Shown: positions 3,146 through 62,350 of the stretch, in pieces
Position numbering within the stretch: the first letter of the stretch is position 1
Layout of the letters: each line of letters opens with the position of its first letter
Origin: Thermocladium modestius JCM 10088
Lineage (GTDB): Archaea > Thermoproteota > Thermoprotei > Thermoproteales > Thermocladiaceae
DNA length: 64,000 nt
Direction of reading: 5' to 3'
Assembly (NCBI GenBank): GCA_001315925.1
Contig: BBBF01000003.1
Coordinates: 1 to 64,000, forward strand
The notes under the pieces: model-generated
What the model was told of the DNA's origin: nothing
The model's database searches: none
The model's input: the letters and a program-made list of their open reading frames with translations, nothing else
Program-made: the position numbers and the translations under genes

Positions 3146-3253
3146 GGAGTTAGCTGCCCATTTCCTGCCTATCACAGGGCCCAAGCCGTGCGTTTGTCAG
3201 GCCATCCCGGAAAGGGATTGAACCCCCCCCTGACCAAGCTAGACTACGGCCCC
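3146..3253 (-). tRNA. split tRNA-Pro(UGG), 5' half
   Basis: Read on the minus strand from 3253: acceptor strand GGGGCCG, TA, a D region starting GTCTAGCTTGGTCAG, then anticodon stem CACGG and loop CTTGGG, giving anticodon TGG. No 3' tRNA sequence follows. The transcript instead runs into TGGGCAGCTAACTCC (3160-3146), the exact reverse complement of the leader of the 3' half at 50499-50586. The two stems CACGG and CCGTG pair perfectly, and TTGGG can pair with CCCGA of the partner to build a bulge-helix-bulge for splicing at 37/38. The D region is about 36 nt too long, so one or two extra introns lie there. C runs at 3223-3230 and 3250-3256 look inflated. This is trans-splicing architecture; function is inferred. 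Confidence 0.85.
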
Positions 3254-3274: not shown

Positions 3275-3287
3275 GCATTTTTAAAGA
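3275..3287 (-). promoter_or_regulatory. TATA box of the split tRNA 5' half
   Basis: Minus-strand CTTTAAAAATG is centred about 28 nt upstream of the tRNA 5' end at 3253, the standard archaeal TATA spacing. It indicates independent transcription of this half. Confidence 0.6.
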
Positions 3288-3467
3288 TTTGCTCGAGCGG
3301 GCACTAGCAATTCTCCTTTCCTTATTGGGGCCAAATCCCATGTCTAACGCCGAGGAATTAGGCTATGCTGGCTCTTGGAGGACAATGGCTGATAAAAAAG
3401 AGGACAAACCTCGCCTCTTTGAGGCGGGAAGAAAGTTTTTTTAAGTTCCTTCAACACATCTTTCTTC

Positions 3468-4903
3468 ATGACGCCCTCCCCTGGTCAATTCCCTGAGGAT
3501 GAGGAGCGGGGGGGCCGATCACCCCAGCAATACCGGGGGGGAAGGGCGTCCACGAAGTCAAATATTCAAATAAGAGAACAAATATTGTACGTCTCCTACC
3601 AAACGGATTCCAAGAAAGGAAGCTAAAGAGGTTAGCCAACGAGTGTGCCAAGCTCTTCAACGAGTTAAACTACGAGAGGAGGCAACAATTCTTCCACGGG
3701 GGGGAAAAAGTAGACCTAAAAGGCACGTGGGGGGGCAAGTACTATGAGAAGTACAAGGGTGTACTTGGAGTTAACGCTCAAGCTGTCATGCAGAAGAACA
3801 ACGAGGCGTGGAGTTCGTTCTTCTCCCTACTGAGGCTGAAGAAACAAGGAAAACTACCTCACATGGTTAAAGTTTCGCCACCGCGTTATTGGAAGGAAAA
3901 AGAAACTAAGAGGAGGAAGCTAATCCTAGTTGTTAGGCAAGATCGCTATGAAGTCGATGAGAACAAGCACGTTATCATCCTCAAGGACTTCCACTTGGAG
4001 GTTGAGTTTGTAGGTGGGTTGAGGCGGCGTGGGAAACAAGGAAGGTTAGAAATCATCCATGATGAGACTACCAACAAGTGGTACGCCCACGTGCCAGTTG
4101 ATGTGGGGGGTTGAGGAGACGAAGACTGGGAAGAAGAGTGAATACGTTGTTCGCGGTGAGAGGAAGTCAATCCAGGCCGAAGCACCGAAGGGAAACAAGA
4201 TAGCCTCCATAGACTTAGGTATTAACGTCTTGGCCAGCGTAGTAGTCGACGACGGGACTTGGTTGTTATATAGGGGTGTTAGGGCTAAGGAGGATTATTT
4301 CTACTTCCAAAGGAGGATCGCCGGGGGGGTGCAGTCGATGGCTGGCAGAGCGAAGAACGTGGGTGAATATGAAGCGTATGAAGAGTTAGCAAGAGAGAAA
4401 AGGGGGGGAGCGTTCAAGAAACTGTATAGCAGACTGTTACACTTATACAGAAACTTAGCATCCCACATGGTAAGGAAATTATATGAACTAGGTGTATCCA
4501 TCGTTTATCTAGGCTATCCCTTCAACATTGCGCAGGGGGGGAAGGGTAATAAGTTCACTGTGAACTTGTGGTCTTACCGTGAACTAATGGAAGCGATTGA
4601 GTTGAAGGCTCAAGAGTATGGCATGAAGGTGTTTGAGGTTGTTGAGTATAACACCTCTAGGCTGTGTGCATATCATGACGTTGAGGTAAGGAGACATCCT
4701 AGAGGGGGGGTAGTAAGTTGTCCTAGGGGGGGCATAAGTTGCACAGCGACTTAAACGGTGCATTGAACATAATGAGAAAGGCTGTGGGCATCGTTGTGTC
4801 GACGGTTAAGAAACCGCTTTCATTCCTAGTACTTCATGGCGGAGTAGCGCCCGTTAAAGGGGGGCGTAACCCTCCAGACCTCGGGGAACCCCCCCCACCC
4901 TAA
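3468..4903 (+). CDS. tnpB: TnpB, RNA-guided nuclease family
   Basis: About 475 residues, close to the family norm once frame changes are bridged. TnpB proteins are RuvC-like nucleases guided by an omega RNA from the element's right end. Seen: RuvC I SIDLGINVLAS (Asp present), a helical insert, YLGYP where RuvC II normally places its Glu, then a zinc-finger-like region (C/H pairs at LCAYH and CPRGH) and RuvC III HSDLNGALNI (Asp present). The ATG at 3468 is chosen because a frame reading MTPSPGQFPEDEE connects through shortened G tracts into the conserved body. Frame changes occur at G tracts near 3511, 3535, 4105, 4705 and 4727. The C-terminus runs into the right end, as in other IS605 tnpB genes. 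Copies of its tail occur at 54549-54790. Confidence 0.85.
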
Positions 4904-4924
4904 AGGGCGGGGAGGAGGTCAGTA
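4840..4924 (+). ncRNA. putative omega RNA scaffold / right end
   Basis: The last part of tnpB plus the right end holds GGAGTAGCGCCCGTTAA followed by a GGGG/CCCC hairpin and the shared terminus. A close relative stands alone at 26155-26263. In IS605 elements this region is the scaffold of the guide RNA, with the guide taken from sequence beyond 4924. The RNA itself is inferred from position and conservation. Confidence 0.45.
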
Positions 4925-5014
4925 CGTTGGTTTAAATATCTCAATCGCTTGGAGTCCCATAATGCCTAGAGTAGGAGACTCAGCCTTTAAAGAGCGGTAT
5001 GCCGAGATAGCGGT

Positions 5015-50498: not shown

Positions 50499-50586
50499 TG
50501 GTGGGGCCGCCGGGATTTGAACCTTCCCCCCCGGGCAACTCGGCCCGACCGGGACCTCACGGGATCGGGTGGGCAGCTAACTCCGA
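50499..50586 (-). tRNA. split tRNA-Pro(UGG), 3' half
   Basis: Minus strand: leader GGAGTTAGCTGCCCA (50584-50570), exactly complementary to the 3' flank of the 5' half, then CCCGAT, position 38 C, anticodon stem CCGTG, variable AGGTC, T stem CCGG, a probable intron of about 26 nt (TCGGGCCGAG to the G7 run and AAG), then GTTCAAAT CCCGG and acceptor CGGCCCC with A73. CCA is encoded in DNA (50501-50499). No D arm or acceptor 5' strand precedes it. Joined to the 5' half it makes a full cloverleaf with anticodon TGG. The intron boundaries in the T arm are inferred. Confidence 0.85.
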
Positions 50587-50607: not shown

Positions 50608-50620
50608 CTATTAAACTTTT
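50608..50620 (-). promoter_or_regulatory. TATA box of the split tRNA 3' half
   Basis: Minus-strand AAAAGTTTAATAG is centred about 27 nt upstream of the complementary leader, so transcription would start at or just before GGAG at 50584. This supports a separate transcript that begins with the pairing segment. Confidence 0.6.
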
Positions 50621-62118: not shown

Positions 62119-62350
62119 CCTCCATGAGTAGATAATCATAACCCCCCCCTTCTGTGGCATTGGTCTAAGGTCCTACCCGGGCCTCGTCGCATGGTTCCTC
62201 ACAGGCCCCTATTTGGACCAACGTCCCCCCCTTCCGGCTTTACCCGTCGGGTCGCCCCGAGGGACCCATGCGAGTAGGGGGGGGAGTTTCCTGAGGCCGC
62301 CCGTCGCCGTGACGGCCCCCCCGCGCATTGCGATTATCTACCCATGGAGG
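62119..62350 (-). ncRNA. rnpB: RNase P RNA, minimal (type T-like)
   Basis: Minus strand. Its ends form a 19-bp P1 helix: CCTCCATGGGTAGATAATC (from 62350) pairs with GATTATCTACTCATGGAGG (to 62119) with one mismatch. Between lie the conserved CR-I-like CAGGAAACTCC, a P-stem GGGTCCC...GACCCGACGGGTAAAGCC, the GTGAGGAACCATGCGACGAG part, and the CR-V-like AATGCCACAGAAGG. Only about 232 nt, lacking the usual specificity domain, as in Pyrobaculum/Caldivirga type T RNase P. G/C tracts at 62142, 62225, 62277 and 62315 are probably inflated. TATA box CTTATAAAC (62374-62382) is about 27 nt upstream. Confidence 0.85.

Follow-up and report, generated by a model that had tools for sequence, protein, structure and literature searches.

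A probable split tRNA-Pro with a T-arm intron in its 3' half in the archaeon Thermocladium

The stretch of DNA analyzed here, referred to as the window, comprises positions 1 to 64,000 of contig BBBF01000003.1 and belongs to a metagenome-assembled genome of the hot-spring archaeon Thermocladium modestius JCM 10088 that is 47.6% complete (G000). At 50584-50499 on the minus strand, which also carries the other tRNA features of the window described below, lies what is very probably the gene for the 3' half of a split, trans-spliced tRNA-Pro that also contains a cis-spliced intron in its T arm. A TATA-like box (TTTAATA, 50609-50615) precedes the leader of this half (50564-50584) by about 28 nt. 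The leader begins with GGAGTTAGCTGCCCA (50584-50570), which would form a duplex in trans with a partner transcript, and continues with CCCG (50569-50566) and AT (50565-50564), which a scan for bulge-helix-bulge (BHB) motifs formed in trans assigns to a central helix and a bulge, respectively. The exon covering tRNA nt 38-52, CCCGTGAGGTCCCGG (50549-50563), was read from the sequence and from the assembled tRNA; it is followed by an insert between nt 52 and 53, TCGGGCCGAGTTGCCCGGGGGGGAAG (50523-50548), and by nt 53-73 with an encoded CCA, GTTCAAATCCCGGCGGCCCCACCA (50499-50522). Searches using both tRNA halves led to two genomes of the same genus, G001 (97% complete) and G002 (76% complete; Thermocladium sp. 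UBA166). Both contain the 3' half at 93-94% identity, with its TATA-like box in the same place.

A sequence-only reading of this locus had noted that 26 nt interrupt the T stem and that their removal gives a perfect T arm. Both observations hold, since without the insert CCGGG pairs with CCCGG around the loop TTCAAAT. The length needs correction: 26 nt is what the assembly contains, while the corresponding intron measures 23 nt in G001 and 22 nt in G002, and the copy in the window is longer by three G. The window is collinear along almost its full length with contig C16 of G002, an independent assembly, and roughly one in two G/C runs of 4 or 5 in G002 is longer in the window, by 2-4 nt and in most cases by 3, whereas A/T runs agree in length. 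The extra GGG fits this systematic expansion, so that three of the 26 nt are likely an assembly artefact and the true T-arm intron is most likely 23 nt long. Lengthened G/C runs break genes such as RtcB (contig C41 of G000), which is split into several frames, and they probably explain the low completeness of the genome.

In both G001 and G002 the T-arm intron folds into a strict BHB, with a 4-bp central helix (UCCC/GGGA), two 3-nt bulges cut at GG^U and AG^G and a 5-bp inner helix, and its removal restores the tRNA. A nearly identical intron occupies the same position in tRNA-Val(GAC) of all three Thermocladium genomes (its BHB was checked in G001 and G002). This recurrence, together with the conservation of the 3' half in two further genomes, shows that the T-arm insert is not due to chance. 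Thermocladium is placed in the Thermoproteales, and sharing of an intron between tRNA-Pro and tRNA-Val is what the transposition of tRNA introns reported in this order, as summarized in PMC4033280, would lead one to expect.

The partner of the 3' half was found in the same window. GGGGCCGTAG and the complement of the leader were both located near 3.2 kb on the same strand as the 3' half, and the 5' half, with anticodon UGG, spans 3253-3146. Upstream of it is a TATA-like box read directly from the sequence, TTTAAAAA (3278-3285); like that of the 3' half, it stands about 28 nt ahead of its half and is conserved at the sequence level in all three Thermocladium genomes. The exon with nt 1-23 (3229-3253) is separated by a D-arm intron at 23/24 (3194-3228) from the exon with nt 24-37 and the anticodon (3180-3193), both read from the sequence and the assembled tRNA. 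This D-arm intron is 35 nt long as assembled, 32 nt in G002 and 29 nt in G001, and in both relatives it forms a strict BHB (GUCA/UGAC, cuts GG^G and AA^A) whose removal restores a normal D arm. After nt 37 follow a segment of 18 nt, CCCTGTGATAGGCAGGAA (3162-3179), and a trailer consisting of a bulged A and TGGGCAGCTAACTCC (3146-3161). The trailer ends in 15 nt that are exactly complementary to the beginning of the 3' leader, and the duplex score of -33.0 compares with -13.3 +/- 3.2 for shuffled sequences. Joining the halves at 37/38 and removing the introns gives a normal tRNA that ARAGORN identifies as tRNA-Pro(tgg). The proposal of the sequence-only reading, trans-splicing at 37/38 combined with cis-splicing in the T arm, thus gains support from the strict T-arm BHB of the relatives, a partner within the window, perfect leader complementarity and a normal predicted product.

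Neither half is recognized by standard annotation. ARAGORN called no tRNA in the window, and Rfam reported only a contiguous tRNA-Pro(GGG) at 54972-54854 and a truncated RNase P RNA (62130-62339, minus strand; RNaseP-T, 83.5 bits). With relaxed thresholds, Rfam also matched tmRNA at the 3' half, but only at chance level, and the 5' half gave no relevant match. Two other arrangements were considered. A contiguous multi-intron gene directly upstream of the 3' half, where TAGGCCTTAGGAAAAAGG resembles a D arm, was dropped once the true 5' half was found elsewhere, and a permuted tRNA was rejected as there is no 5' part near the 3' half.

The systematic run-length errors and low completeness of G000 raise the possibility that the assembler broke a contiguous, intron-containing tRNA-Pro. 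The two UGG halves are about 47 kb apart in the window. They are, however, also about 46 kb apart on one contig of the independent and collinear G002 assembly, and in G001 they lie on two separate contigs, each half with its own promoter. Misassembly is therefore a most improbable explanation. Archaeal integrases commonly use tRNA 3' ends, and the 3' half could also be imagined as a non-functional attachment-site remnant from the integration of a mobile element into a tRNA gene. TnpB-like ORFs (assigned by eye) at 3788-4754, close to the 5' half in G000, might point in the same direction. The collinear G002 contig, however, lacks the stretch containing them (3322-4947), and this points to a recent insertion. 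Moreover, no intact copy of tRNA-Pro(UGG/CGG) was found, and the 3' half, which is conserved in three genomes, comes with a promoter of its own and with a leader whose sequence complements the 5' half. We consider a remnant very unlikely.

The 3' half appears to serve two anticodons. A second 5' half, with anticodon CGG, was identified on contig C22 of G000 and recurs in G001 and G002. It pairs through its trailer with the same 3' leader, one leader base being bulged, its D-arm intron is located at 22/23, and the assembled tRNA is identified by ARAGORN as tRNA-Pro(cgg). Strict BHB solutions that give back a normal D arm exist for the D-arm introns as well. We searched G000, G001 and G002 for a second 3' half with this exon and, using patterns of Pro 5' and 3' ends, for a contiguous tRNA-Pro(UGG) or tRNA-Pro(CGG), and found neither. 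These absences hold in the 97% complete G001 and so do not only reflect gaps in a poor assembly. The halves, their promoters and the complementarity between trailers and leader are all repeated in G001 and G002.

Between the anticodon exon and the duplex, the four Thermocladium 5' halves examined retain a trailer segment of 15-20 nt, and this segment behaves as a complete intron in our folding analyses. An unconstrained scan for trans BHB motifs returned one identical best junction, ...AA to CCCGTG, in all four 5' halves; the motif is strict for CGG, and for UGG all four central pairs form in G001. In the joined RNA, a strict BHB is predicted at 37/38 with the 5-bp anticodon stem outside and cuts at GG^C and AA^C. 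Its central helix is CUCG/CGGG or CUUG/CAGG (CUUG/CGGG in G001), CUUG/CAGG being the version for the 18-nt intron in the window, and varies together with anticodon base 34. When the segment was shuffled, the cis score was reached in 0.0001-0.002 of trials and both scores together in <=0.0001. Matches to the splicing endonuclease family, one strong and one weak, are present in both G000 and G001, consistent with the heteromeric crenarchaeal enzyme, and RtcB is also present.

These observations suggest a nested pathway, which we regard as the somewhat better-supported route. Short transcripts of the UGG or CGG 5' half would base-pair, via their trailers, with the leader of the common 3' half. 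The splicing endonuclease would make two cuts in the trans BHB, one following AA in the trailer and the other directly ahead of C38, behind CCCG-AU in the leader, and RtcB would ligate the ends of the two transcripts. Joining would complete the short 37/38 intron, whose strict BHB forms only at this stage; it would then be cut at GG^C and AA^C, the second cut falling again directly before C38. The D-arm intron (23/24 for UGG, 22/23 for CGG) and the T-arm intron at 52/53 would be removed in cis by the same enzymes. That trans-splicing comes first and cis-splicing then follows at the same 3' exon border is an order we favor with some reservation. In such a scheme, one trans joining and the removal of three small introns appear to make up four splicing events, and thus four ligations, per mature tRNA. 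Transcription, the order of splicing and the actual use of both 5' halves are inferred. The sequence-only reading had covered the T-arm intron and the trans junction, and it did not include the apparent sharing of the 3' half with CGG, the D-arm introns, the 37/38 cis intron or the likely 3-nt artefact.

A simpler possibility is trans-splicing in one step, in which a relaxed motif is cut directly at GG^C (37) and AU^C (38), while the 15-20 nt segment forms a side hairpin within an enlarged bulge and is not an intron excised on its own. For most pairs of halves, structure prediction at 37 C gives a duplex in which UUGGG or UCGGG is paired with CCCGA, accompanied by a side hairpin, as one-step splicing would have it, and crenarchaeal endonucleases are known to accept relaxed motifs (PMC4090602). 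However, only the two-step model places both cuts in strict 3-nt bulges, and the co-variation of the central helix with anticodon base 34 (CUCG/CGGG, CUUG/CAGG) and the shuffle control (<=0.0001) speak against a one-step route. A trailer in a Caldivirga-like genome, described below, likewise keeps a segment resembling the cis intron of a sister tRNA. We view one-step splicing as the less probable route.

Several points weigh against the split, doubly spliced tRNA-Pro proposed here. The modelling of the T-arm borders that the sequence-only reading had called for succeeded in G001 and G002, but the window copy as assembled yields only displaced BHB solutions, because of the extra G. The UGG trans BHB is imperfect in G000 and G002, with three of four central pairs and a 2-bp outer helix. 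As G000 and G002 are 47.6% and 76% complete, a second 3' half may have been missed in these two genomes.

Other proline tRNA genes were examined for comparison. In the window, the contiguous tRNA-Pro(GGG) at 54972-54854 has a 37/38 intron and ends in ACTA without CCA, confirming the contrast with the encoded CCA of the 3' half that had been pointed out earlier. CCA is encoded in most tRNA-Pro genes of the family, and we draw no further meaning from this contrast. In the Caldivirga-like genome G012, tRNA-Pro(GGG) is split into a 5' half (L201, G012:C15:6400-7000) and a 3' half (L142, G012:C1). In L201, nt 37 is followed by a retained segment of 30 nt and then by a trailer perfectly complementary to the L142 leader. 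In G003, where tRNA-Pro(GGG) is contiguous, the cis intron has the same length as this segment and is identical to it at 17/30 positions (shuffle p 0.0005). The BHB helices have 3/4 pairs, and G012 likely has the same layout as Thermocladium, though less clean. In G010, a tRNA-Pro(GGG) (L265, G010:C53, 485-1834) has a D-arm intron of about 1.2 kb between long inverted arms, with a glycosyltransferase-like ORF (543-1697, assigned by eye); this could be a very large intron or a gene on its way to being split. An orphan tRNA-Pro 3' half with a TATA-like box was found around position 2211 of G017:C112 (L266). Its leader matches the 3' part of a relative's cis Pro(UGG) intron, and no 5' partner was found in the 87% complete G017. 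Apparent orphan 5' ends in G020 and G021 turned out to be contiguous genes with a 3' end slightly off the search pattern.

If this interpretation is true, the 3' border of an intron already present can be the point at which a tRNA gene splits, as the UGG and CGG tRNAs of Thermocladium and the Caldivirga-like tRNA-Pro(GGG) would illustrate. A break at the 3' border of a retained intron suggests a route from intron-containing to split genes, and bears on the question of whether split tRNAs are ancient or derived. A derived origin is more likely for the Thermocladium split tRNA-Pro because in the family's other genera tRNA-Pro genes are mostly contiguous. As the genus is culturable, splicing by a single endonuclease first in trans and then in cis also becomes directly testable.

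Published split tRNAs include Met, His, Lys, Gln and Glu in Nanoarchaeum equitans, Gly, Ala and Glu in Caldivirga maquilingensis (PMC4390854) and Asp and Lys in Desulfurococcales (PMC3218864), and our findings would add proline to this list. A half common to synonymous anticodons is already known (PMC4390854, PMC4090602), and the 3' half described here would be a further case. Neither a split tRNA-Pro nor a nested trans-then-cis layout was found in the literature searched, which did not extend to the 2009 C. maquilingensis study, and the novelty of both is provisional. In the split and tri-split tRNAs of C. maquilingensis, a member of the same order (Fujishima 2009, as outlined in PMC4033280 and PMC4390854), the separate promoters, complementary leaders and trailers, 37/38 junction and half common to synonymous anticodons are all as in Thermocladium. 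According to these outlines, C. maquilingensis differs in the amino acids and in leaders that correspond to intron regions of relatives, while Thermocladium keeps a whole short intron in the 5' half with the duplex downstream of it. The tRNA-Pro genes of G003, presumed to be C. maquilingensis, look contiguous. The N. equitans tRNA-Glu(UUC/CUC) similarly combines two 5' halves with one 3' half (PMC4390854, PMC4090602) but differs in amino acid and lineage, and we did not find cis introns described in its halves. The Desulfurococcales tRNA-Asp and tRNA-Lys are also two-piece, with a BHB at the junction (37/38 for Asp) and a promoter before the 3' half (PMC3218864). Their halves are close together, whereas those of Thermocladium are far apart, have a 3' half in common and contain additional cis introns. 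Pyrobaculum islandicum tRNA-Pro(UGG), the same isoacceptor, has introns at 25/26, 37/38 and 56/57 (PMC4090602), likewise in the D arm, anticodon loop and T arm, but it is contiguous, while the Thermocladium gene is also split and has other D-arm and T-arm positions. Finally, the transposed tRNA introns of Thermoproteales (Fujishima 2010, as related in PMC4033280) resemble our case in that a near-identical intron occurs at one position in different tRNAs, here Pro and Val; as far as that account goes, the difference is that one Thermocladium copy sits in a split half.
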